Origin: an uncultured Chloroflexus sp.
GTDB lineage: Bacteria > Chloroflexota > Chloroflexia > Chloroflexales > Chloroflexaceae
Length of the DNA stretch: 49,282 bases
NCBI RefSeq assembly: GCF_937129525.1
Contig: NZ_CAKZNK010000155.1
Coordinates: 1-49,282, forward strand
Direction of reading: 5' to 3'
Below the pieces are notes generated by a model. That model was not told the DNA's origin and did no database searches. It worked only from the letters and a program-made list of their open reading frames with translations. Position 1 is the first letter of the stretch. Every line of letters starts with the position of its first letter. The position numbers and the translations under genes were made by a program. This document shows, one piece after another, positions 31,066-43,753 of this stretch.

Positions 31066-32418
31066 TCAACCCTCGCGCGCCTTCAGATCTTCGAGGATCG
31101 GCTGCGCACCCTGCGCCAGTTCATCATTCACCGCCGCAAAGACTGCGCTTGGCGCTTCCCCGTTGACGATGATCCGCTCTAACCCCTTCCCGATAATCTG
31201 ATCGCCGTTGCGCACGAAGACGCGCGCGGCATCCTGGGCGCGGGTCTGGGGCAACTGATCGACCGCCGTCTTGAAGTTGGGGTTTTGATTGAAGAACTCA
31301 ACCATCTCGGGCGTCTGCTTGGTGCTGATGCGCACCGGCATGTAACCGGTGCTGCGCGCCCACACCCCGGCATTAACCGTACTGGTTGCAAAGGCGATAT
31401 ACTTCATCGCCGCCAGTTGCTTTTCAGCCGGCGACCGGCTGACCACTGCCAGACCGGCGCCACCGGTAGGACAGCCGAAGTTGGTCTCGCGAGGCAAGAA
31501 ACCAACCCCAACCGGGAAGGTGGCACTGGACTGAATCCCGGCCAGCGCACCAGTTGAGGCCATCATCGAGGCAATGGCGCCACCGAGAAAATCCTGATTC
31601 AAATTATTGCTCATCACTGCCCACTTGTCTTTTACCACCGTATCCTGGTAGAACTGAGCCGCGCGCAGTGTATTAGGATCGGTCATGGTCATCGTGAAAT
31701 CGGGCAGTGAGTACTGTCCGCCAAACTGCCAGACCACACCCTGGAAGAGCCATGCGATGTAGCTGGCGCCATTGGGATGACCAAATGCAGCCCGGCTACC
31801 ATCACTCTTGACCAGCTTCGGCACCCACTCGCTAAACTCGGCCCAGGTTTCAGGTGCCCGGTCGGGCAAGCCGGCTTCGGCCCAGATGTCCTTGTTGTAG
31901 TAGAAGAGCGGCGTGCTGCGAGCAAACGGGATCCAGTAGTGAACGCCTTTGCGCACGCCCTCGTTGAGCAACACCGGCTCGTAGTCGGCGAAGTCGAGAT
32001 TGACCTGCTTTGCCAGATCATCCAGCGCCGAAATAGCGCCGGCCAGATAAAAGCCAAACCACCAGACATCCGAGAGCAAGATAACATCAGGAGTCGTATT
32101 TGCCTGCAACGCCGCAGTAAACTTCTGCGCCGTCTCTTCGTAGCTGCCCTGGAATTGATACTCGACCTCAACCTCGTTTTGCGACTCGTTGAACGACTTG
32201 ACCATCGCCTGCTCGGCCTCACCCAGGTTACCACTGAATGAGCCCCAGTAGGTAATCTTAACCTTCGAACCGGGCTGGCTGACAACCGCCGGCGCAGTCG
32301 TCGCCTGCGTCTCCTGGCTACCCTGGCCAGCGGGACTGCCACAAGCCGCCAGCAATGCCGCTCCACCCCCTGCCATCATCAGGCGTAACATCTCACGCCG
32401 GGTCAAAGTCCGCTTCAT
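31066..32418 (-). CDS. ABC carbohydrate-binding lipoprotein (UgpB-like)
   Basis: 450 residues. The N-terminus has twin arginines (TRREMLRLMM) and a lipobox LLAACGS, so it may be Tat-exported and lipid-anchored. The mature part is a family-1 extracellular solute-binding protein: ITYWGSFSGNLGEAEQAMV, DVILLSDVWWFGFYLAGA, FARSTPLFYYNKDIWAEAGL and PETWAEFSEWVPKL. The closest pattern is UgpB, the glycerol-3-phosphate/glycerophosphodiester binder, though oligosaccharide binders share it. It follows the two permeases in the order A-E-B. No ATPase is in the window; it is presumably shared and encoded elsewhere. Confidence 0.88.
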   Translation of the reverse strand: MKRTLTRREMLRLMMAGGGAALLAACGSPAGQGSQETQATTAPAVVSQPGSKVKITYWGSFSGNLGEAEQAMVKSFNESQNEVEVEYQFQGSYEETAQKFTAALQANTTPDVILLSDVWWFGFYLAGAISALDDLAKQVNLDFADYEPVLLNEGVRKGVHYWIPFARSTPLFYYNKDIWAEAGLPDRAPETWAEFSEWVPKLVKSDGSRAAFGHPNGASYIAWLFQGVVWQFGGQYSLPDFTMTMTDPNTLRAAQFYQDTVVKDKWAVMSNNLNQDFLGGAIASMMASTGALAGIQSSATFPVGVGFLPRETNFGCPTGGAGLAVVSRSPAEKQLAAMKYIAFATSTVNAGVWARSTGYMPVRISTKQTPEMVEFFNQNPNFKTAVDQLPQTRAQDAARVFVRNGDQIIGKGLERIIVNGEAPSAVFAAVNDELAQGAQPILEDLKAREG

Positions 32419-32608
32419 GATCTCTCCCTCAGGTTATTGACTACGGAACCAGCTCGAACGCCAGGCGTTCAGATCTATGCATACGGCCCACTGCCGTGAT
32501 GCCCTGGAATGAAGCGGCAGCACGCGACGCTACCGCGATGCAATCGCGCAATGATCCCTATACACGCCGCAATACTCCCCTTTCAGCGTGACAACCATTG
32601 CGTTACGC

Positions 32609-33499
32609 TTAACCCTTTACCGCGCCGGCGGTCATACCTTCGACGATAGCGCGTTGGGCGAGCAAGAAAGCGATCAGCACCGGCACGATCAGAAAGAGCG
32701 AACCGGCCATGACCACACCCCAATTGGACAGACCTTCACTATTGCGCAGCCAGAAGACACCGATCGGCAGAGTGCGCATATCGGTGGTATTGGTGACGAT
32801 TAACGGCCAGAGGAAGTCGTTCCACTTGCTGACGATCGACAAGAGCGCCATCGTAACGATAGCCGGCTGCGCAATCGGCATAACAACACTGAAGAGGATG
32901 CGCAGATGGCCAGCTCCATCGACCTTTGCCGCCTCAAGAATTTCGCGCGGCACGGACAGAAACGCCTGTCGCAAAAGGAAGGTACCGTAGGCGATAGCAG
33001 CTCCTGGAATGATGATGCCCTGATAGGTATTGATCCAGCCGAGACGAGCAACAGTAAGATAATTCGGCACAATAGTGATCTCAACCGGCACCATCAACGC
33101 TGCCAGTAGCAAAAGGAAGACCAGATCTTTGCGCGGGAAGCGCAGATAGGCCAGCGCATACGCCGAGAAGAGGGCCAGGATCACCTCAGCCGCCGCGCCG
33201 AGAAAGGTGGTGATAAAGCTATTGAGATAGTAGCGACCGAACGGCGCTGCCTGCCATGCTGCCGGGAAGTTCGCCAGGGTAGGGTTGGCCGGCCACCACG
33301 TTACCGGCAACGAATAGATCTCGCGCGTCTCTTTGAATGCAGACATCACCGTCCAGTAAACCGGCAAACCGATAACCAGCACAACGAAGAGCATTGCCAC
33401 ATAACCGGCGATACGCCAGGCCAGCAACGAGAATGGGAGTGATTGCCGTCGCGTTGCTGCAGGCGCCATTCTCTGTTCTATCTCATTGGTGACATCCAT
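32609..33499 (-). CDS. ABC sugar permease (UgpE/MalG-like)
   Basis: 296 residues from ATG 33499 (MDVTNEIEQR), with a second in-frame ATG ten codons later and no strong ribosome site for either. Six membrane helices; the EAA loop EAAKVDGAGHLRILFSVVMP contacts the ATPase. It has the VYWTVMSAFKETREI N-terminus and the TGAVKG C-terminus typical of UgpE/MalG-type inner-membrane subunits. Its partner UgpA-like gene lies 129 bases upstream on the same strand and the binding protein 190 bases downstream. Confidence 0.88.
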   Translation of the reverse strand: MDVTNEIEQRMAPAATRRQSLPFSLLAWRIAGYVAMLFVVLVIGLPVYWTVMSAFKETREIYSLPVTWWPANPTLANFPAAWQAAPFGRYYLNSFITTFLGAAAEVILALFSAYALAYLRFPRKDLVFLLLLAALMVPVEITIVPNYLTVARLGWINTYQGIIIPGAAIAYGTFLLRQAFLSVPREILEAAKVDGAGHLRILFSVVMPIAQPAIVTMALLSIVSKWNDFLWPLIVTNTTDMRTLPIGVFWLRNSEGLSNWGVVMAGSLFLIVPVLIAFLLAQRAIVEGMTAGAVKG

Positions 33500-33628
33500 A
33501 CAATCTGTATCACTCTCATGCTTGCGCGCAGCGAATGGCAGTTTCCTCTCAAGACGACGCCAATCTCTGAGCGCCCAAACAACAACACAGGGTTTCTCCA
33601 CATCGCGCAATCTACATTTGCGCTACGC

Positions 33629-34549
33629 TTATCCATAGGTCACCTGGCGCTCAACATAACGAATTTGAATCATCGTCAGCGCCAGCATTATCAGGAAGAG
33701 CACAATCGCGACGACACCAGCCTTACCGGCATCATACGAGACGAAACCCAACTCGTAGAGATGAAAGACAAGGGTTGTCGTCGCGCTCGCCGGACCGCCA
33801 TTGGTCAAGACGCGAATGATGTCGAAAGACTGAAAGCAGGTGAGAATACTGGTTACCGACAGAAAGAAAGCGACTGGCGAGAGACCGGGCAGAGTAACGT
33901 GCCAGAACCGATCCCAGGCGCCAGCGCCATCAACGCGAGCCGCGTCATACAACTCACGTGGAATGTTTTGCAGGCCGGCGAGGTAAATCACCACAGCGTA
34001 GCCAATGTTCTTCCATACGTACACGATGATCACTGCCGGCATCGCCCAAAACGAATCGATCAGCCAATTCGGTGAGTCGAGACCGAAGAACCCCAGCAAC
34101 TGGTCGATCAAGCCATAGCGCGGGTCAAAGATGTAGCTCCACACGACAGCCACTACCGCGCCTGAGATCACCACCGGTGCAAAAACCACTGCGCGCGCCG
34201 TATTGCGAAATTGCAGCGGCTGATTGAGCAGGAGTGCCAGCATCAACCCGATAATAAGTGTCAGGCCGACCGACCAGACGGTAAATGTAGCCGTTTGCCA
34301 GATGATGTTCCAGAATTGGGGATCACTAAAGGCGGAGATATAGTTCTGCAACCCGACAAAGGGCATTGCAGGGCGCAAAAAATCCCAGCGCACCATGCTG
34401 AGATAGGCGTTGTAGAGTAATGGCCAGTAGGTGAAAACGCTGAACAGAAACAGATTAGGGCCAATGAACAGGACGAAGAGCAACCATTCACGATGCTCGC
34501 GCCGCGATGTTTTCGGATGGTAATCCTGATGAGGCGTATACGTGGCCAT
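33629..34549 (-). CDS. ABC sugar permease (UgpA/MalF-like)
   Basis: 306 residues, six membrane helices. The first helix starts after a polar N-terminus (EWLLFVLFIGPNLFLFSVFT). Periplasmic loops include MVRWDFLRPAMPFVGLQNYI. The coupling EAA-type loop is YDAARVDGAGAWDRFWHVTLP. First gene of the operon: promoter lies in the 307-base gap up to 34856. It forms the transmembrane pore with the UgpE-like protein. Substrate most likely a sugar or glycerol-3-phosphate derivative. Confidence 0.9.
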   Translation of the reverse strand: MATYTPHQDYHPKTSRREHREWLLFVLFIGPNLFLFSVFTYWPLLYNAYLSMVRWDFLRPAMPFVGLQNYISAFSDPQFWNIIWQTATFTVWSVGLTLIIGLMLALLLNQPLQFRNTARAVVFAPVVISGAVVAVVWSYIFDPRYGLIDQLLGFFGLDSPNWLIDSFWAMPAVIIVYVWKNIGYAVVIYLAGLQNIPRELYDAARVDGAGAWDRFWHVTLPGLSPVAFFLSVTSILTCFQSFDIIRVLTNGGPASATTTLVFHLYELGFVSYDAGKAGVVAIVLFLIMLALTMIQIRYVERQVTYG

Positions 34550-34856
34550 AGTGACTCACAATTGCGTACTCTTCATTAATGTCACTATGGTAGTGCGCTT
34601 TGATTAATCGTTCATCATTAATTTATTAAGTAATAGTTAAGAAATTCCTATTTCATTGTTAAACCATCCACAGCCGCAAATCGCGGGCAAAGCTGTGGCC
34701 AGAACGGGCGAATGATGCAGACCAACTGCAACGATTCGGCGATGATAGACGTAATCTTTGCGTGAATGGGATAATTTTAGCTATACAGTGGCACTGATAG
34801 AGTGCTACTATATAACTCAGATAGCTCTCAACCGTCCAGATCATGAAGACATTTGT
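34550..34856. promoter_or_regulatory. AT-rich divergent regulatory gap
   Basis: The gap between the divergent ABC operon and the solute-binding-like gene holds no gene. It includes CACTA/TAGTG around TGG at 34583-34595, flanked by ATTAAT words (about 34576 and 34603), an operator-like arrangement before the ugpA-like start. The other end has AT-rich -10-like words before 34857. Regulator identity unknown. Confidence 0.35.
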
Positions 34857-35951
34857 ATGCTGACAATTTCGCGCATAGTTGCCGCCAGCTACATCTTCGC
34901 AACCATCGTCCTGGCAGTCATCACCGTCGTCTATGGCCCGATCGGATGGGCGCCGTTGCCTTTGCCGACTGCTGCGCCACCGATTCGGATTGACCTGGCG
35001 ATAAGTTCAGAAAAGGAGGATTGGATCCGCAGCGCCATCGAACGCTTCGCCCTGACCAACCCAACTGTCAATGGCCGGGCAATTGAGGTCAGGGTGCGCA
35101 TAGCGGGTTCGCGCGAGCTGATCGAGCTGATCGAGCGAGGGAGCTATCAGCCAACGGCAGTCAGCCCGGCCAGCGTATTGCAACTGAACGAACTGCGCCA
35201 GTGGCGGCCAGAATTCCTGACCGAACCGGCTCAATCACTGGTACTCTCGCCGATCGTGGTATTGGTGCGCGAGTCGGCAGCAACGGACAGTGTTGTCGAT
35301 CCATGGCGGGCAATCCAGGACAATAATCTTAAGGTTAAAATCGGTATCTCTGCGCCGACCCGAAGCAATGGTGGTCTGCAAACTATTCTGCTCCTGGCAG
35401 CGCAGTACCACCGAAGCGACAATCTAACCCGCGAACAGGCGCGCGATCCCGCGCTACAAGACTGGCTGGCAAACCTCGATCGCCGCGTCGTCCAGTGGCC
35501 GGCCAGCACTGGCATGCTCACGACCGACTTCATCATTCGGCCCGGCGTCTACGACATCATCACTACATATGAAAATCTGGCCTTACAGTCATTTCGGCAA
35601 GGTGAGGGACGCGGATTGCGCATCCGCATACACTATCCACCGATCACCACCGTTAGCGATCATCCCTACACTATCCTGAACGCGCCATGGGTCGATAGCG
35701 CCGAGCGTGAAGCTGCGCGTCTGCTGGGCAATTTTCTGCTTAGCCCCGATGAGCAGCGGATTGCGATGCGCCAGTATGGGTTTCGTCCGGCCAATCCGCA
35801 AGTGACCGTCAATCTTACCGACGCGGAATCGCTCTTTGGCCGTTACGCTGACCGCGGCCTGCAAATCGACCTGGCTGCGCAACTCGCCACTCCCACGCCT
35901 GATGTGGTCACCGAACTGTTGAATACGTGGCGAAGCGCAACAGGGCAATGA
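34857..35951 (+). CDS. Solute-binding-like protein 1 of the vWA cluster
   Basis: 364 residues from ATG 34857. One N-terminal membrane helix (IVAASYIFATIVLAVITVVY) anchors an extracytoplasmic domain. That domain is a type 2 periplasmic-binding-like fold: IRIDLAISSEKEDWIRSAIE, LVLSPIVVLVRE, APTRSNGGLQTILLL and FLLSPDEQRIAMRQYGFRPA. It is paralogous to the next protein, with the shared YGFRPANP end motif. No lipobox was seen. The gene is 40 bases before the vWA fusion gene. No permease or ATPase lies alongside, so a binding or receptor function rather than transport is inferred. Confidence 0.75.
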   Translation: MLTISRIVAASYIFATIVLAVITVVYGPIGWAPLPLPTAAPPIRIDLAISSEKEDWIRSAIERFALTNPTVNGRAIEVRVRIAGSRELIELIERGSYQPTAVSPASVLQLNELRQWRPEFLTEPAQSLVLSPIVVLVRESAATDSVVDPWRAIQDNNLKVKIGISAPTRSNGGLQTILLLAAQYHRSDNLTREQARDPALQDWLANLDRRVVQWPASTGMLTTDFIIRPGVYDIITTYENLALQSFRQGEGRGLRIRIHYPPITTVSDHPYTILNAPWVDSAEREAARLLGNFLLSPDEQRIAMRQYGFRPANPQVTVNLTDAESLFGRYADRGLQIDLAAQLATPTPDVVTELLNTWRSATGQ

Positions 35952-35991
35952 ATGCATTCCACTCGAGTGAACAACCGGAGAGGAGTTATCG

Positions 35992-37632
35992 ATGCTGACG
36001 CGACCATTTAAACTGATCACTTCACTCGTGTTGCTCATCACCCTGCTCAGTGGCTGCGGCGATTTCGGCGCGCTATTGAGCGGTGGTGACGCTAATGCAA
36101 TCACGATCAGTATCGCTTATAGTCCGGAAAAAGATAAATGGCTGACCGAACAGATTGCCCGGTTCAACGAACAGCGCATCACGGTCAATGACCGTCGCGT
36201 GCAGGTCGAAGGGATCAATAAGTCGTCGGGCGCGGCGCGCACCGAAATCAAGAAGGGGACGCTCCAGGTTACCGTCTGGAGTCCATCGGCCAGCACCTGG
36301 CTCGAAGTGCTCAAGCAAGAGAGCGGCAATCAAAACATCGCCATTTCGAATAAGCCACTGGTATTGACGCCGGTCGTGATTGCGATGTGGAAGCCAATGG
36401 CCGAGGCGATGGGATGGCCAAACCGGCCAATCGGCTGGAAAGACATTCTCGACCTGACCAACGATCCGCAAGGATGGGGACGCTTTGGTCGCCCGGAATG
36501 GGGACGCTTCTCGTGGGGACACACCGATCCCGAAATCAGTACGACTGCGCTCAGCACGCTCATCGCTGAGTTCTACGCCGCCACCGGCAAGCAAGATGGG
36601 TTGACGGTGGCTGATGTGCAGAGCGAGCAGGCCACGCGCTTCATCCGTGAATTGGGGCGCAGCATCAAACACTACGGGTACAACACCCTGGTCTTTAGCG
36701 AGAACATGAAGAAATTCGGCATGAGCTACATCTCGGCCTTCCCGATGGAAGAGATTACGCTCATCGACTTCAACAAATTCGACCCGCCGCCGACGCCCCT
36801 GGTAGCGATCTATCCGGCAGAAGGCACCTTCTGGCACGACAACCCATTCATCATCATGGCGAGCGCCACGGCTGAAGAACAAGAGGCTGCCGAGCGTTTC
36901 TACGAATTCCTGCTCACCGAAGAGAGCCAACGCGCCGCAATGTCATATGGCTTCCGTCCGGCTAACCCCAACGTGCCGCTTACCGATCCGATCAGCCCGG
37001 CGTTTGGCGCTGATCCGCAAGGCGTGCAAACAGTGCTAGAGGTGCCATCGGCAGAAGTCATTGTTGCAGTCAAAAACTCTTGGGCGCTCAATCGCAAACG
37101 CGCCGACATTCTGCTGGTCGTTGACACCTCTGGTTCGATGGAAGGTGATAAGCTAGCGATGGTAAAAGCCGGGATCGAGACCTTCTTAATGCGCATTATG
37201 CCCGAAGATCGGGTTGGAATGATTACGTTTGATTCAACAGCTCGACTGGTGGTGCCGATGGCGCCGCTAAGCGACAACCGAATTGATTTACAGGTTGCAG
37301 TGCAAGAGATGCGCGCTGTCGGACGCACGGCCCTGTTTGACGCACTCGCGCTGGGTAAACAGACGCTGGATGAACTGCCACCTTTAGAAGAGGATCGCAT
37401 TCGCGCGATTGTGTTACTCTCGGATGGAGCAGACAATCAGAGCCGGTTGTCTCTCGCCGAGGTGCGCAATCTCTTCGAAGAGAGTGGTATCAGTATCTTC
37501 CCGGTCGCCTACGGCAGCGACGCTGATCGGCAAGTGCTTGATGCGATTGCCGAATTTGCCCGAACTATCGTTGTAGTCGGCGACACCGGCGATATTGCGC
37601 AGATCTTTGAAAATCTGAGTCGGTACTTTTAA
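35992..37632 (+). CDS. Lipoprotein fusing solute-binding and vWA domains
   Basis: 546 residues; ATG preceded by GAGAGGAG. A lipobox LLSGCGD ends the signal near residue 23. Residues about 35-330 form a binding-protein-like domain (ITISIAYSPEKDKWLTEQIA, TVWSPSASTWLEVL, EEITLIDFNKFDPP, SYGFRPANPNVPLTD), paralogous to the previous gene. Residues about 370-546 form a von Willebrand A domain with an intact metal site: Asp378-Thr-Ser-Gly-Ser (DTSGSM), Thr446 (RTALFD) and Asp478 (LLSDGADNQ). vWA domains bind protein partners through a metal. A surface lipoprotein that both senses a ligand and recruits a partner is inferred. Confidence 0.82.
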   Translation: MLTRPFKLITSLVLLITLLSGCGDFGALLSGGDANAITISIAYSPEKDKWLTEQIARFNEQRITVNDRRVQVEGINKSSGAARTEIKKGTLQVTVWSPSASTWLEVLKQESGNQNIAISNKPLVLTPVVIAMWKPMAEAMGWPNRPIGWKDILDLTNDPQGWGRFGRPEWGRFSWGHTDPEISTTALSTLIAEFYAATGKQDGLTVADVQSEQATRFIRELGRSIKHYGYNTLVFSENMKKFGMSYISAFPMEEITLIDFNKFDPPPTPLVAIYPAEGTFWHDNPFIIMASATAEEQEAAERFYEFLLTEESQRAAMSYGFRPANPNVPLTDPISPAFGADPQGVQTVLEVPSAEVIVAVKNSWALNRKRADILLVVDTSGSMEGDKLAMVKAGIETFLMRIMPEDRVGMITFDSTARLVVPMAPLSDNRIDLQVAVQEMRAVGRTALFDALALGKQTLDELPPLEEDRIRAIVLLSDGADNQSRLSLAEVRNLFEESGISIFPVAYGSDADRQVLDAIAEFARTIVVVGDTGDIAQIFENLSRYF

Positions 37633-37638
37633 GTCGCT

Positions 37639-37697
37639 GCGCCGGCAGGGGATGAAGCAGGACAGCTTCCCATCATGACGCTCGCCCTTGCCGGCGC
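37639..37697 (+). other. Long stem-loop after vWA gene
   Basis: GCGCCGGCA (37639-37647) and TGCCGGCGC (37689-37697) are perfect inverted arms with partial extension (GGG/CCC) and a 41-base loop, just past the vWA stop. No T-run; terminator or mRNA structure possible. Confidence 0.35.
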
Positions 37698-37771
37698 CAG
37701 GTATCGAACATCAGACGGCTTACGTCAAGTCAGTCATCGCTCGATCTGACAACAATTTGGTTTGGGCTGCG

Positions 37772-37780
37772 TGATATAAT
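37772..37780 (+). promoter_or_regulatory. Extended -10 promoter for the coiled-coil gene
   Basis: TGA followed by consensus TATAAT (37775-37780) is an extended -10 without a good -35. It places an in-frame ATG at 37779 inside the promoter, supporting the ATG at 37818 (after AGGAG) as the real start. Confidence 0.45.
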
Positions 37781-37817
37781 GGCGTTAGCAACAATTGCGT
37801 CAGGAGCAACAACTGAT

Positions 37818-38543
37818 ATGGCCATTCTGCGCACTGCCGCTCTGCAACCAATCAATATCCTGGCACTGGTTGCCGCAATCTTCGGCGGAGTGACTCTGAC
37901 CATCTGGTGGCTACCGCTGGGAGTAGGAGTGTATGCGATAGCGGTATGGCTGGCCGCCCGCGATCCGCTCTTGACCGCGCCGCCGCCGCTACCGCGCCCG
38001 CGTATTACCAGCTCGAGATTACGTGCCATCATTACAGAGATTGAGCGATCGCAACGCGAAGTAGAACGAACTGCCCGCGCAGCTCAAGGCCCAATTGCCG
38101 GCCTGCTCAGCAACATCGTCACTCAGACTCGCGATCTAGTCATGGAAGCCTACTTCCTGGCCGATAAAGGACAGATGATCGAACGTTATCTGGCCAACAG
38201 CAACGAGGAACGCCTCTCGCAGCAAATTCAGCAACTTGACTGGCAGATCAGCGCCACGATTGACACCTTTACCCGCCAGCAACTTGAAGAGCGGCGACAG
38301 TCGTTGCAGGCGCAACGCCAGCACATTTACGACCTCGCAAACCACCTTAATCGGATCCAGGCCCAGTTAGCAAACATCGATGCCAGCCTGGACACGACGC
38401 TCGCCGAAATTGTGCGACTCCGCGCTGCCGACGCTGTAGCGATGGCATCGACCAGCGGCGCAGTGCAACAACGTCTCGCCGATCTGCGCAGCGATATGGA
38501 GGTGTTCCGCAAAGTGCTCGACACCGCAATGACCGGCATTTAG
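37818..38543 (+). CDS. Membrane-anchored coiled-coil protein
   Basis: 241 residues. Two N-terminal membrane helices (INILALVAAIFGGVTLTIWW; LPLGVGVYAIAVWLAA) precede a proline-rich turn and about 180 residues of coiled coil (RLRAIITEIERSQREVERTA, IQQLDWQISATIDTFTRQQL, QRLADLRSDMEVFRKVLDTA). The topology puts the coil in the cytoplasm. I do not recognise the family with certainty; the outline resembles XpaC/TelA-region partner proteins of vWA-type stress clusters. It has its own promoter after the vWA gene and precedes the histidine kinase by 109 bases. Confidence 0.65.
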   Translation: MAILRTAALQPINILALVAAIFGGVTLTIWWLPLGVGVYAIAVWLAARDPLLTAPPPLPRPRITSSRLRAIITEIERSQREVERTARAAQGPIAGLLSNIVTQTRDLVMEAYFLADKGQMIERYLANSNEERLSQQIQQLDWQISATIDTFTRQQLEERRQSLQAQRQHIYDLANHLNRIQAQLANIDASLDTTLAEIVRLRAADAVAMASTSGAVQQRLADLRSDMEVFRKVLDTAMTGI

Positions 38544-38652: not shown

Positions 38653-40080
38653 ATGGTTGCGCGCTCACTCATCCCGGCCCGCACTCCGGTCGCAACACCT
38701 GATGAAGGACTCGTCGCCGATCTCTTGCCGCCGATGCTCGTGCTTTTGGCCACGCTATCGGGTGGCGCGATCGGAATCTTGTTGCTCAATCGCTGGCACT
38801 ATAATCTCTGGCCATATGCAATCGTTCTGCTGCTCTTACTCGCGGTAGCCATCAGTGACCGGCTGCGCCGAAAAGGCAATCTCCCCGCCGCCAGCATCGT
38901 CATCGTTGCGGCGCTTACCATCTTACCGATGTTGAGCTGCGCCGCCTTCGGCTTCACCAACAATATGTTTGTCTATCTGAGCGTGCTGGGAGTGATTGCT
39001 GCCGGCATCATGGTGTCGTCGCGCGCGCCGTTTCAGGCTGTTCAGGCTGCAATTCTCACCTATCTCATTCTGCTGGTGGCCGCCGACTGGATCGGCCAAC
39101 CGCGCCCAACCTGGTTTGAAGCAATCGGCCAAATTTTGTTCCAGAGCGTTCTCTTGCTTGGCGTGGCCACACTCAGTTGGGCCGCCGCTTACGTTGTGCG
39201 CGGCACTATCAGTTGGGCCATCGATACAGCGCAAAAGTCGGAACGGCGCGAGCAATTGTTGCGCGAGACCCAGGCTAACCTCGAACGTGCTTTGCTTGAG
39301 CGTGACTTGCTCAACGAGCAGCTCTACCGCGCGACTCTTGAATTGGAAGAGGCGCGCGCTGCCGCCGAGGCAGCATACCGCTCAAAAGCCAACTTTATGG
39401 CAACAATGTCGCACGAGTTACGCACGCCGCTCAACATTATTATCGGGTTTAGCACAGCCATGCTAGAACATCCCGAAATGTACGGCGACGCGCGTATTGA
39501 TGAACAGGTTCTGCAAGACATTGCCGAGATTCGGCGCAGCGGTCAGCATCTGCTCAGTATCATCAACGACATTCTCGACCTGGCGAAGGTCGAAGCCGGG
39601 AAACTCGAACTCAATAAGACAAATCTGGCCCTGCCACCGTTGCTCGAAGAAGCAATGCGTCACGCGCAGGCCCTGGTCAACAATCGACCAATTCAACTGC
39701 GGCGCGAGTTTCCCGATTCGCTACCAACAGTGCTGGCTGATGAAGTGCGGGTCAGACAGGTTCTGCTCAATCTCGTTTCAAATGCCAGCAAATTCACCCA
39801 TGCAGGCGAAATTGCTGTTGGCGCGCGGGCTGACAGCAATCAGATCGTGATCTGGGTGCTTGACACCGGCATTGGCATTGCGCCGGCTGACCAGGAGCGT
39901 ATCTTCCAGCAATTCGAGCAGGTTGAGAATGCCGACACTCGCCAGCACGCCGGCACCGGTCTTGGCCTTTCGATCTGCCGCTGGCTGATTGAATTGCACG
40001 GTGGACGGATGTGGCTGGAGAGTGAACTGGGCAAAGGAAGTATCTTCTTCTTCTCATTGCCACGCGCGCGCGCAGGGTAA
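38653..40080 (+). CDS. Membrane sensor histidine kinase
   Basis: 475 residues. The N-terminal half has about six membrane helices (residues 24-190), with no large periplasmic domain, as in 7TM-like or MASE-type input modules. A coiled linker leads to HisKA with the phosphoaccepting His254 (MSHELRTPLN), then the HATPase domain with N box LLNLVSNASKF, G1 DTGIGIAP, F box and G2 GTGLGLSICRWL. The response regulator follows after 81 bases, making a cognate pair likely. It lies just after the SBP/vWA/coiled-coil cluster, but separate control is possible. Confidence 0.92.
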   Translation: MVARSLIPARTPVATPDEGLVADLLPPMLVLLATLSGGAIGILLLNRWHYNLWPYAIVLLLLLAVAISDRLRRKGNLPAASIVIVAALTILPMLSCAAFGFTNNMFVYLSVLGVIAAGIMVSSRAPFQAVQAAILTYLILLVAADWIGQPRPTWFEAIGQILFQSVLLLGVATLSWAAAYVVRGTISWAIDTAQKSERREQLLRETQANLERALLERDLLNEQLYRATLELEEARAAAEAAYRSKANFMATMSHELRTPLNIIIGFSTAMLEHPEMYGDARIDEQVLQDIAEIRRSGQHLLSIINDILDLAKVEAGKLELNKTNLALPPLLEEAMRHAQALVNNRPIQLRREFPDSLPTVLADEVRVRQVLLNLVSNASKFTHAGEIAVGARADSNQIVIWVLDTGIGIAPADQERIFQQFEQVENADTRQHAGTGLGLSICRWLIELHGGRMWLESELGKGSIFFFSLPRARAG

Positions 40081-40161: not shown

Positions 40162-40521
40162 ATGGCCAAAATCCTCCTTGTCGACGATGTCTACACGGCT
40201 CGTTCCATGTTTGAGCGTGTGCTCCGCCACGTTGGACGGCACGAGGTGCTCTCGGTAGGTAGTGGCGCTGAAGCCCTGGCCAAAGTCCATGAATTCGCTC
40301 CTGATGTGATCGTGCTCGACATCAGTATGGCCGATCGCGATGGCTTTATGGTATTGCGCGATCTGCGCGCCCAAGGGATCACCTGCCCGATCATTGCGCA
40401 TACTGCCCGCACTGAAAGGACGCCGGGCGAATTTGTAGCCCAGGGTTTTGATGCTTACGTGCCCAAAACGGGCAACCTGACCAATCTGCTCAATACCGTG
40501 CGCGATCTGGTCGGGCGGTAA
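40162..40521 (+). CDS. Single-domain response regulator
   Basis: 119 residues, a lone receiver domain; ATG preceded by AAAGGAG. Acidic pair Asp8/Asp9 (LLVDDVYTAR), phosphoacceptor Asp53 (VIVLDISM), Thr81 (AHTAR) and Lys102 (VPKTG) are in place. No output domain, so it acts by protein contact, as CheY-like or Spo0F-like relays do. It lies 81 bases after the histidine kinase. Confidence 0.92.
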   Translation: MAKILLVDDVYTARSMFERVLRHVGRHEVLSVGSGAEALAKVHEFAPDVIVLDISMADRDGFMVLRDLRAQGITCPIIAHTARTERTPGEFVAQGFDAYVPKTGNLTNLLNTVRDLVGR

Positions 40522-40620
40522 CAGACGCATGCGCGAGTGAGCCATCGCGCTGCCACATGATGCAGGCCCTGATCAATCGGTTACAATATAGCTGGTGGAA
40601 CATTGACCGCAGGAGGCATT

Positions 40621-42060
40621 GTGACCGTTGATCTGGTACGTGGCATGCGTGATGTCACCCCGGCTGAGTATGCAATCAGTCGGCACGTGCAAGCTATCTT
40701 AGAACGGGTGATAGCCGGCTATGGCTACCAGATGCTCGATACGCCGATCATCGAGCACCGTGATCTGTATTTGCGCAAACTGGGTGAAGAGCTGGTCGGA
40801 AAAGTTTACGAATTCAGCTTTGGCGGGCGCGACCTGGCGCTGCGCCCTGAGTGGACGGCATCGGTGCTCCGGACTTACGTGGCCGGGATGCAAGATCAAC
40901 CGTTGCCGCTCCGGCTGAGCTATACCGGGCCGGTCTTTCGTTACGAACGTCCGCAACGCCACACCTATCGGCAATTTACCCAGATCGGCGGCGAACTTAT
41001 CGGCGGGTTGCCACCGCGCGCAGATGCCGAAGTAATAGCCCTCGCCTGCGCCGGTTTGAACGCCGCAGGTATCAGCGAATACACTGTTCGGATCGGTCAT
41101 ATTGGATTGGCGCGCGAATTGCTCAGTCGCTTCGATCTGCCAGAGCGCACGCACGGCCTGCTGGTGTGGAGCCTGGAGCGATTGCGGGCCGAAGGGATCG
41201 CGCCGGTACGCGAACGAGTGCTGGCCAATCTTGGCACGCCGCCGGAAGGTCTTGAATTGCCGCCTGGCCTGGATGACGCCCAGGCAGCGCTCTGGCTGGA
41301 ACGGATCCTGGCCGCAATGCGCATCGATCTGCGCGCGGGTACGCGCAGCCCGGCAGAAGTCATTCAGCGGTTGCTGCGCACGCTGCGGCGGGCCGACGAA
41401 CAGCCATTGGTTGAGGCGGCACTCACCCAACTGGCCCAACTGGCTGCGATCAATGGCGCGCCAGCGCAAGCGTTACCGGCTTTAACCACCCTGTTCGGCG
41501 CCGATTCGCCCGCGTTTCGCGAACTGCAGGCTATCCTTGCTTTACTCTCTGCTCACGGCGTACATGCCGGGCAGGTGGTGTTCGATGGCGCGCTGGGACG
41601 TGGCCTTCATTATTACACTGGCTTGATTTTCGAGATTTACGATCAGGACGGCAATCAGCTCTGTGGAGGCGGACGCTACGACGACCTGGTCAGCGCGCTT
41701 GGCGGTCGCCAATCCATTCCCGCCGTTGGTTTCGCTTACGGATTGGAACGAGTGGTTGCTGCCGCCGCAGTGCCTGAAATGCCAGCACCAACAACCATTC
41801 TCGTGGTGGCAGTAAGTGACGATGACTATCCATATGCGCTCACCGTTGCCGAGCGCCTCCGCGCCAGCGGATGGATCGTAGCGCTTGACGCGCGTGGACG
41901 CAGTGTAAAAGACAATTTGCGCGATGCAACTCGACGCAGCTATGCGGCAGTTGTCATTGTCGGCGCTGCCGAACGAGCTGGCGAGTATGTTGTCTGGCGC
42001 GATCTGGCGACACGCACTGAACGGCGGATCGCGCTCGCCGATTTGGGGGGAAGGCAATGA
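40621..42060 (+). CDS. hisZ: HisZ/HisRS-like protein with anticodon-domain-like tail
   Basis: 479 residues from GTG 40621, with AGGAGG four bases upstream. Class II synthetase-like core: VRGMRDVTPAEYAISRHVQA, DLALRPEWTASVLRTYVAG (motif region), FRYERPQRHTYRQFTQIGGE (motif 2), RGLHYYTGLIFEIY and LCGGGRYDDLV, AYGLERV. The HisA motif reads RGLHYY, not RGLDYY. After residue 390 comes a tail like an anticodon-binding domain (PTTILVVAVSDDDYPYALTV, RRSYAAVVIVGAAERA). HisZ activates short-form HisG, but the neighbouring HisG is long-form, so an actual HisRS or a HisRS paralogue with another job must be considered. It overlaps the next gene by four bases. Confidence 0.78.
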   Translation: MTVDLVRGMRDVTPAEYAISRHVQAILERVIAGYGYQMLDTPIIEHRDLYLRKLGEELVGKVYEFSFGGRDLALRPEWTASVLRTYVAGMQDQPLPLRLSYTGPVFRYERPQRHTYRQFTQIGGELIGGLPPRADAEVIALACAGLNAAGISEYTVRIGHIGLARELLSRFDLPERTHGLLVWSLERLRAEGIAPVRERVLANLGTPPEGLELPPGLDDAQAALWLERILAAMRIDLRAGTRSPAEVIQRLLRTLRRADEQPLVEAALTQLAQLAAINGAPAQALPALTTLFGADSPAFRELQAILALLSAHGVHAGQVVFDGALGRGLHYYTGLIFEIYDQDGNQLCGGGRYDDLVSALGGRQSIPAVGFAYGLERVVAAAAVPEMPAPTTILVVAVSDDDYPYALTVAERLRASGWIVALDARGRSVKDNLRDATRRSYAAVVIVGAAERAGEYVVWRDLATRTERRIALADLGGRQ

Positions 42061-42743
42061 ACACTACGCCGGCATGGGGTCGTTTTGTTGAGTTGCGATT
42101 AGCTCAACAGCAACAGATTATCTCCCAACACCCGATTGGCTGGTTGCCGTGGGCATCGCTAACGTCGCGAGGAGCGCATTTACCGCGCGGCGCTACCGGT
42201 CTGATTGCGGAAGCGGTCGTTACCGGCGCCGCTCGTCGTGTCGGTGGCATCATCTTTCCGTTGCTGTGGTACGACCGCGACATCAATAATCCCATCTTTC
42301 ATCAGTTTCTGGCCGCACAGTTGAAGAGCATCGCTGCGCAAGGCTTTCAGATGGCGGTAGTGATCGGGATAGCAGACACGGCACCTGTTGATCTGGGGCT
42401 GATCGAGATTGCTGAAACGGCTATCGCGCAGCACCGTCTGCTGACGCTGGCCGTCTCACCGTTGGAACTGGTTGACGAAACGATGCAGGATCGCGGCGCA
42501 TTGTGGGAAACATCGATCTTGCTGGCTATTCGTCCCGATCTAGTTGATCTCAGTCAGCTCAGTTCCGACAATGGTCACAACGCGCGCGACCTGGCCAGCC
42601 CATCGCTAGGCCAGCAGGCTCTCACCCTGGCAAGTGAACAACTGGCGAAGGCGGTTCAAGAAGTCTACAGGCATCAGAACGCGACAGCGGTCGCCGCGCT
42701 CTATCAGCAGCGTCGCGCCCGTTATCACAAAACAACGCTATGA
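42057..42743 (+). CDS. Creatininase-like protein with degenerate metal site
   Basis: 228 residues, translationally coupled to hisZ (ATGA overlap) and to hisG (second overlap at 42740). The fold is suggested by GWLPWASLTSRGAHLPRGAT near residues 28-47 and by GALWETSILLAIRPDLVD, matching creatininase-family turns. Canonical members have E-H-G-x-H-L-P-L-x-T-D: here the first Glu and His are replaced (ASLTSRG), the last Asp is lost, and the HGGN region reads VIGIADTAP. So at most part of the metal site remains. It may be a non-catalytic or altered-specificity protein working with HisG/HisZ. Confidence 0.6.
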   Translation: MNTTPAWGRFVELRLAQQQQIISQHPIGWLPWASLTSRGAHLPRGATGLIAEAVVTGAARRVGGIIFPLLWYDRDINNPIFHQFLAAQLKSIAAQGFQMAVVIGIADTAPVDLGLIEIAETAIAQHRLLTLAVSPLELVDETMQDRGALWETSILLAIRPDLVDLSQLSSDNGHNARDLASPSLGQQALTLASEQLAKAVQEVYRHQNATAVAALYQQRRARYHKTTL

Positions 42744-43753
42744 CTCTTCGTTTTGCGATCCCTTCGAAAGGCTCTGGCTACGATGCGACCATCGCATTGC
42801 TTGAGAGTTGCGGTCTTCGGGTCACCCGCGCCAATCCCCGCCAGTACACCGCTGTGCTGCGTGGATTGCCCGATACCGAGGTGCTATTGCATCGGCCAGC
42901 CGACATTGTGACCAAGGTCGCCGAGGGCGCCATCGATTTAGGCGTCACCGGCTACGATCTCTTGCACGAACTGCACGGTGATGACGATGATGATGTCTTG
43001 ATCGTGATCGATGACCTGGGCTTCTGGCGGGTGGAACTAGTCTTCGCCGTGCCACAGAGCTGGATCGATGTCACGTCGTGGGCCGATCTCGCCGATCTGG
43101 CAGTCGAGTTTCAGAGCCGCGGTCGCCGGCTGCGCATCGCCACCAAATATCCCAATACGGTGCGCCGGTTCTGCTACGAGCATGGCATCAATGTCTTTGA
43201 ACTGGTCGAGTCGCAGGGCGCGACCGAGGCAGCGCCAGGCCTTGGCTACGCTGACATCATTGCCGACATCACCGAGACCGGCACTGCCATTCGCGAAAAT
43301 CAGTTAAAGATTGTCGGTGGACCGATCATTCGCTCACAGGCAGTCTTGATCGGATCGCGCCGCTCACTGCGCGGTCAGCCGGCCCGCCTCGAGGTAGTGC
43401 GCCAGCTTTGCGAATTGATCGAAGCTCGCCGCCGTGGCCGTCTCTTCTACTCACTCACGGCCAACCTGCCCGGCGCATCGGTCGAAGAGGTGGGACGAAA
43501 AGTGACCGCTCGCCACGAATTAGCCGGTCTGCAAGGGCCAACTATTGCGCCAGTGTGGAGCAAATTTATCAGCGAGAGCGGCTGGTACGCGGTCAATGTC
43601 GTTGTGCCACAAGAGGAATTGTTGCCGGCAATCGACTATCTGCGCAGCATTGGCGCCAGCAGCGTCACAACTGTGCAGGTACAACACGTCTTCCGGGCCG
43701 AGAGCGAGGCCTTCGCGCGACTGAGCGCGCGCCTTGACGAGGAGCAACTATGA
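42740..43753 (+). CDS. hisG: ATP phosphoribosyltransferase HisG, long form
   Basis: 337 residues; ATG overlaps the preceding stop (ATGA). It joins ATP and PRPP in the first step of histidine synthesis. Visible: LRFAIPSKGSGYDATIALLE N-terminus, RPADIVTKVAEGAIDLGVTG, EHGINVFELVESQGATEAAP (PRPP-loop region) and DIIADITETGTAIRENQL. A C-terminal domain of about 90 residues (HELAGLQGPTIAPVWSKF, WYAVNVVVPQEELL) is the ACT-like regulatory domain of the long form, which works as a homohexamer without HisZ. The pairing with a HisZ-like gene is thus unusual. It overlaps purM by four bases. Confidence 0.88.
   Translation: MTLRFAIPSKGSGYDATIALLESCGLRVTRANPRQYTAVLRGLPDTEVLLHRPADIVTKVAEGAIDLGVTGYDLLHELHGDDDDDVLIVIDDLGFWRVELVFAVPQSWIDVTSWADLADLAVEFQSRGRRLRIATKYPNTVRRFCYEHGINVFELVESQGATEAAPGLGYADIIADITETGTAIRENQLKIVGGPIIRSQAVLIGSRRSLRGQPARLEVVRQLCELIEARRRGRLFYSLTANLPGASVEEVGRKVTARHELAGLQGPTIAPVWSKFISESGWYAVNVVVPQEELLPAIDYLRSIGASSVTTVQVQHVFRAESEAFARLSARLDEEQL

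Follow-up and report, generated by a model that had tools for sequence, protein, structure and literature searches.

We analyzed a stretch of 49,282 nucleotides (positions 1 to 49,282 of contig NZ_CAKZNK010000155.1, assembly GCF_937129525.1) of an uncultured Chloroflexus sp., referred to here as the window. On its forward strand we found a cassette encoding two proteins with solute-binding-like domains (SBP1 and SBPVWA, the second of which also carries a vWA domain), a membrane protein (COIL) with a bundle of long helices, a histidine kinase, and a lone receiver. The genes follow one another in this order with gaps of 40, 146, 109, and 81 bases. The first three are called the trio below.

Gene and protein architecture of the cassette

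Pfam models matched SBP1 (SBP_bac_11, 1.3e-21) and both parts of SBPVWA (SBP_bac_8, 2.8e-24; VWA, 1e-17) above cut-off. The start of SBP1 was set at the ATG at 34857, while the mechanical open reading frame (ORF) opens at 34758. The solute-binding protein (SBP) domains of the two proteins are paralogous (29% identity, E 5.2e-14) and have an end motif in common, of which G-F-R-P (320-323) in SBPVWA and G, R, and P (308, 310, 311) in SBP1 were invariant in 18 of 18 aligned rows. The metal residues of the vWA domain form the DxSxS, T, and D pattern of a metal-ion-dependent adhesion site (MIDAS) and were identical in 18/18 SBPVWA rows and, in a larger alignment, in 40/40. The lipobox position Cys22 is a Cys in 28 of the 40 rows, a gap in 11, and an Ala in one.

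The structure model of SBPVWA had a predicted local distance difference test score (pLDDT) of 89.2 and a predicted template modelling score (pTM) of 0.83, with residues 1-31 low. Compared with solved structures, its first lobe resembles thiamin-, phosphonate-, sulfate-, and ferric-binding proteins (Z 23-26), with matches that include 2qry (Z 25.8, root-mean-square deviation (rmsd) 3.1 over 280), 1sbp (Z 24.3), and FbpA/FutA (about Z 23-24). The title of a further match, 6lkg_A (Z 23.1, rmsd 3.6 over 270), names a signalling protein of a two-component system, which we take to be HptA. The vWA lobe matched 4fx5 (Z 25.1, rmsd 1.9 over 175). Both SBP1 and SBPVWA can be placed in the solute-binding superfamily by Pfam, the two-lobed fold coming from the SBPVWA model alone. 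By profile, SBP1 comes closest to sulfate-binding proteins among solved structures (3.1e-7 to 0.0023), and no ligand is claimed for SBP1 because the ligand residues could not be mapped onto these relatives.

COIL had no Pfam family above cut-off. Its model (pLDDT 88.0, pTM 0.74) consists of a membrane hairpin and a bundle of long helices, for which Foldseek gave no match at E ≤ 0.001. In a comparison with solved structures (VIA-align), the best match was a designed repeat (Z 13.5, which for helical bundles is within noise), and BAR-type bundles matched weakly (Z 9-10, again in the helix noise range). The bundle is predicted to be cytoplasmic and the SBP domains to lie outside. The six hydrophobic helices of the histidine kinase are joined by short loops, none of them long enough for an external domain, and a signal would therefore need to arrive via a partner.

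Much of this architecture had been proposed in a preliminary description made from the DNA letters, and it was borne out: the adjacent paralogous binding-protein-like domains with their common end motif, the lipobox, the complete metal site, and the two-helix membrane protein with a long coil after the pair were all recovered, and the Pfam scan placed a histidine kinase and a receiver downstream of the trio.

The trio is under purifying selection, with SBPVWA the most constrained. Compared with three relatives from the genus, the ratio of nonsynonymous to synonymous substitution rates (dN/dS) was 0.044-0.145 in the seven of nine comparisons that could be estimated (SBP1, 0.136-0.145 in 2/3 pairs; SBPVWA, 0.044-0.048 in 3/3; COIL, 0.050-0.096 in 2/3), values that are rough because dS was saturated (> 1.2).

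Table 1 Features of the window and of related loci. Loci are labelled with L numbers.
Feature	Location	Strand	Description
SBP1	34857..35951	+	364 aa; SBP_bac_11, residues 47-310; one N-terminal hydrophobic helix (7-25); no lipobox
SBPVWA	35992..37632	+	546 aa; lipoprotein, solute-binding-like domain fused to vWA domain
SBPVWA lipobox	36043..36057	+	LLSGC, Cys22; from sequence
vWA domain of SBPVWA	37105..37611	+	residues 372-540; metal site D378, S380, S382, T446, D478
COIL	37779..38543	+	254 aa; N-terminal membrane hairpin (model helices 24-40, 44-60); helical bundle 79-251, predicted cytoplasmic
Histidine kinase	38653..40080	+	HisKA, HATPase_c; six hydrophobic helices; no extracytoplasmic domain
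Stand-alone receiver	40162..40521	+	119 aa; no output domain
Ugp-like ABC binding protein and two permeases	31066..34549	-	context, outside cassette; divergent
Zinc ribbon-Ser/Thr kinase-TM-SBP protein	L134 5383-7911		Ktedonobacteria
Zinc ribbon-Ser/Thr kinase-TM-SBP protein	L145 5390-7828		Ktedonobacteria
Zinc ribbon-Ser/Thr kinase-TM-SBP protein	L128 3806-6172		Ktedonobacteria
Peripla_BP_6 protein	L206 4369-5691		after COIL relative
Peripla_BP_6 protein	L207 4528-5688		after COIL relative
Peripla_BP_6 protein	L211 11056-12438		after COIL relative
TM, transmembrane helix; ABC, ATP-binding cassette.

Conservation and linkage of the trio

The trio is a real conserved unit. Among 41 close genomes, COIL was found in 28 as a single copy each, and all 28 COIL genes lie within 1 kb of SBP1 or SBPVWA on the same strand, so that the search for the trio in related genomes proposed as a check in the preliminary description came out in favor of its conservation. 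SBP1 was located within 4 kb of COIL in 27 of the 28 cases, the remaining COIL starting at a contig end, and SBPVWA within 1 kb in 20/28. COIL or SBPVWA adjoined SBP1 in 31 of 32 rows. These counts are based on 28 COIL, 32 SBP1 (E ≤ 4.9e-96), and 41 SBPVWA rows; SBPVWA rows and two SBP1 fragments (from genomes G021 and G002) were excluded from the SBP1 set, as were short pieces and SBP1-only rows from the SBPVWA set. With short pieces and SBP-only matches counted, SBPVWA had a match (E ≤ 1e-20) in 32 of the 41 genomes. The window protein is 90% identical to SBPVWA of Chloroflexus islandicus.

We expanded the linkage analysis to SBPVWA ORFs of at least 450 aa, 159 in number, of which 118 are distinct. 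Within 500 bases, 68 of these 118 genes have SBP1, 47 have COIL, and 39 have both. Further loci were found in Planctomycetota, Acidobacteriota, and proteobacterial metagenome-assembled genomes (MAGs). Outside the phylum SBPVWA is rare (E ≤ 1e-100): it was found in 1/199 genomes of the phylum of Granulicella and in 2/194 of the phylum of a Verrucomicrobiales MAG, both counts including the centre genome.

In a phylogenetic tree of SBPVWA (quick search, with SH-aLRT support only), the window's kind falls in a 45-row group with support 100. This group is sister to all SBPVWA kinds of the SBP1-SBPVWA-COIL sets found in Anaerolineae and Ktedonobacteria, although the deep part of the tree is unsure because of several long branches. 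Two paralogous kinds can be told apart: the window's kind is often alone or beside a kinase, and the other is usually flanked by SBP1 and COIL, a middle position that the window's kind itself takes in Chloroflexus and Oscillochloris. One Chloroflexus genome has two SBPVWA copies flanking COIL, a middle copy and a kinase-side copy (L042 8111-13116).

COIL was found to be similar to two-helix proteins of four distant loci (L203, L206, L207, and L211; profile probability 98.5 over 206 columns), which we accepted as relatives. The two-helix proteins of L135, L151, and L154 gave a probability of 85.6 across only 85 columns, and those of L208 and L212 gave 17.3. The accepted relatives are accompanied by other binding proteins, and Pfam identified Peripla_BP_6 in three of the loci (L206, 1.6e-52; L207, 5.4e-44; L211, 7.2e-41). 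In other lineages the set thus includes type-I binding proteins, and binding proteins together with a membrane coil protein are a recurring theme.

Other genes were seen at individual loci. A PspA/IM30 gene (6e-10) lies between SBP1 and the two-helix coil protein in Granulicella aggregans (L135 10937-11689). A gene for GPP34 (Golgi phosphoprotein 3 family, 1.2e-37) directly follows COIL in an Anaerolineae-type MAG (L148 10415-11053), and by eye a similar arrangement is present at L140 5553. At L127 (3468-4436) and L146 (10959-11918), the SBPVWA-SBP1 pair is followed by similar genes that resemble an EgtD-like methyltransferase by eye only. In the window, HisZ (with an anticodon-binding domain) starts at 40603, 3' of the receiver, and over 40603-43753 it is followed by a creatininase-like gene, which immediately precedes HisG, the latter named by homology only. 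This order is conserved in the genus, so that a creatininase-family gene sits within a run of histidine-biosynthesis genes.

Kinases, transporters, and the function of the cassette

In Ktedonobacteria (Thermogemmatispora, Dictyobacter, and others), SBP1 is about 790-840 aa long and consists of a zinc ribbon, a Ser/Thr kinase, a hydrophobic helix, and the SBP domain. Pfam Pkinase was detected in all three fused SBP1 tested (1.2e-43, 1.9e-43, and 7e-43), and a single hydrophobic helix lies between kinase and SBP in the two fusions examined. The kinase part was matched by 10 of 109 SBP1 ORFs, which correspond to eight distinct loci as two genomes were counted twice; among the eight, one match is weak (55.6 bits) and one is cut by a contig end. 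COIL was not seen beside these kinase-SBP1 cassettes. Judged by domain order, the SBP domain, which has an anchor of its own in the window, is in Ktedonobacteria probably the outer half of a receptor kinase. An orthologue of the window's histidine kinase was found within 1.5 kb of 11 of the 118 distinct SBPVWA genes. Outside the genus, such orthologues (> 380 bits) are linked to SBPVWA in six loci, three of which hold the whole trio (L082, L084, and L085) and three of which lack SBP1 and COIL (L080, L086, and L113).

We then considered transporters near the cassette. The preliminary description had stated that no ABC permease is present, which holds for the trio and fails for its neighborhood: a Ugp-like operon diverges from SBP1, 307 bases upstream. 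No ATPase gene was seen adjoining this operon. It was found beside the cassette in all six Chloroflexus genomes with a readable flank (G000, G001, G003, G004, G006, and G007), and no Ugp gene was found beside the cassette outside Chloroflexus among the matches listed. A permease conserved together with the pair, which that description had named as evidence against itself, is thus nearby and co-conserved inside Chloroflexus only. Because the Ugp operon was seen with the cassette only in this genus, it was rejected as the cognate transporter in general. Of 151 loci, 4 have an ABC-ATPase-like ORF no more than 4 kb away (by a motif test only, in a redundant set, with two on one contig), and none of the 10 multi-helix neighbors scanned, out of 91, was an ABC permease. 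The absence of a transporter is therefore sampled rather than proved, since 10 of 91 neighbors were scanned and ATPases were sought by motif. In these samples, no permease and ATPase were consistently linked to the cassette as they would be for a component of an ABC importer.

On balance, we think that the cassette is probably, with somewhat more confidence than doubt, a transporter-less extracellular ligand-sensing receptor. Sensing is preferred to uptake mainly because SBP1 is fused to a Ser/Thr kinase in Ktedonobacteria. SBP1, held by one helix, and SBPVWA, held by a lipid anchor, would lie on the external side of the cytoplasmic membrane, where their clefts, two-lobed according to family and model comparison, could bind a small ligand. 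The ligand state would be passed on by contact, with the vWA metal site taking an acidic group of the partner, as the conserved residues suggest, and the change would cross the membrane and reach the helical bundle in COIL. From there, the gene order in Chloroflexus and some relatives suggests, it would go onward to the six-helix histidine kinase and then to the lone receiver. In Ktedonobacteria the cytoplasmic arm is part of the SBP1 protein itself, as the Ser/Thr kinase-TM helix-SBP architecture shows. The earlier proposal that ligand binding feeds protein contact rather than uptake fits best with the kinase fusion and with the finding of no cognate transporter outside the genus; the contact itself we infer.

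Several observations weigh against a sensing receptor. Only one lineage has the Ser/Thr kinase fusion, the histidine kinase has no external docking domain, and the receiver has no output domain. Contig ends included, 107 of the 118 SBPVWA genes have no linked orthologue of the window's histidine kinase and 35 have no partner of any kind beside them. SBPVWA has no match in 9 of the 41 relatives, among them the same-genus G002 (incomplete, 82% complete), and occurs in 42 of 251 Chloroflexota genomes at E ≤ 1e-60. Transporters of other families lie near the cassette at L099 (AI-2E family) and L210 (cytosine/purine permease). Promoter-like sites in the window numbered 1 observed against 3.6 expected, and a terminator scan likewise gave no support.

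Two other functions are possible and rank below sensing. SBP1 and SBPVWA have the fold of ABC-importer binding proteins and could be orphans that serve an importer whose genes lie elsewhere, or else the divergent Ugp-like operon next door in the six Chloroflexus genomes, with vWA serving merely to tether or localize them. We consider this unlikely, as the Ugp operon has a binding protein of its own and is not seen with the cassette beyond the genus in the matches listed, the few ATPase-like ORFs and the scanned neighbors point to no linked importer, and the kinase fusion suits sensing. Slightly less likely still is a complex for envelope maintenance or membrane remodelling, in which the SBP and vWA domains would bind wall or surface polymers or metals while COIL shapes or patrols the membrane. 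The PspA/IM30 gene in Granulicella, the weakly BAR-like COIL model, and the frequency of vWA genes in FtsZ-like-1 operons with predicted membrane remodelling (PMC2875224) are in its favor. However, PspA is beside the cassette in one lineage only, COIL is not PspA by Pfam (PF04012 failed to match it, SBP1, or SBPVWA), none of the trio was identified as FtsZ-like, though no FtsZ-directed search was made, and the kinase fusion is left unexplained. The envelope-stress system suggested in the preliminary description comes down to that single PspA gene in one Granulicella genome.

The same description had also pointed to a related TelA-type gene group, which did not hold up. XpaC is a two-helix membrane coil protein, and in this respect COIL is like it, as would be expected if the cassette were related to the TelA/XpaC (Ter) stress systems. 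However, the window's genome has no TelA. Across Chloroflexota, 10 of 151 genomes have it, and none of the 10 mapped TelA loci (of 11 found) holds SBP1, SBPVWA, or COIL. XpaC (PF10112) was found in 0/151 of these genomes and is not among the Pfam families listed for COIL rows (25 of 118 families), and COIL has no profile similarity to two TelA-adjacent two-helix proteins (probabilities 0.4 and 5.4). We rejected this link, which is highly improbable.

Returning to the sensing receptor, a more tentative extension, in which we place clearly less confidence, is that the cassette represents a previously unrecognized class of transmembrane receptor in bacteria. Such receptors would have paired solute-binding ectodomains, a metal-dependent vWA switch that gates association in an integrin-like manner, and interchangeable cytoplasmic arms: in Chloroflexia the COIL bundle with a histidine kinase, in Ktedonobacteria a Ser/Thr kinase within the same protein, and elsewhere other binding proteins with COIL relatives. 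Annotation takes binding proteins as importers. If the sensing reading is true, an importer-less cassette with two of them, a metal-dependent contact domain and, in one lineage, a kinase-fused ectodomain offers a directly testable receptor type. Many orphan binding proteins and vWA lipoproteins in Chloroflexota, whose extensive signalling repertoires are unexplained, would then have a part in sensing.

Comparison with known systems

The substrate-binding proteins of ABC importers for sulfate, ferric iron, thiamin, and phosphonate have the same fold and family as SBP1 and SBPVWA. Unlike them, the cassette proteins have no linked permease or ATPase found outside the genus and are joined to a vWA domain or, in the Ktedonobacterial case, to a kinase. 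With MIDAS-type vWA proteins (BatB, CLCA1, alpha2-delta, and the inter-alpha-inhibitor heavy chain), SBPVWA has the vWA fold and metal residues in common, but it carries a bacterial solute-binding domain, which they do not.

FtsZ-like-1 operons often include vWA genes (Makarova and Koonin 2010), and that paper describes membrane-associated vWA proteins, an intact metal site, and conserved gene groups, as in the cassette. The cassette differs in its constant binding proteins and in that no FtsZ-like gene was identified. The main text of a phage-shock survey (PMC11237479) does not contain the term 'von Willebrand', and the vWA conflict systems (PMC7159879) and archaeal vWA groups (PMC5898192), as far as these sources were available, have different gene sets. 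Anti-phage defence was also rejected: PADLOC gave no match for SBP1 or SBPVWA and only weak matches of the coiled-coil kind for COIL (best 4.3e-4). The Ktedonobacterial kinase of L134 matches PD-T4-6 kinase models in PADLOC, which we took as kinase homology only.

The closest parallel is HptA-HptS-HptR of Staphylococcus, in which, according to PMC8774646, the binding protein HptA relays a ligand signal to the kinase HptS. A type-II binding protein, a membrane kinase, and adjacent genes are found in both. The adjacency of binding protein, histidine kinase, and receiver genes that characterizes HptASR and TorTS was observed in the window and in the six loci outside the genus, whereas the extracytoplasmic docking domain of their kinases was not. 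The cassette also differs in its receiver without an output domain and in adding two binding proteins, a vWA domain, and COIL. Because its kinase has no external domain, we do not claim membership in HptASR; by analogy, the cassette may work like HptA-HptS-type systems without being one of them. No published description of the cassette was found among the papers listed from the open-licence literature, the scope of the search, subscription journals lying outside it. Binding proteins that signal are already known, and it is their composition with vWA, COIL, and kinase fusions that is apparently undescribed.

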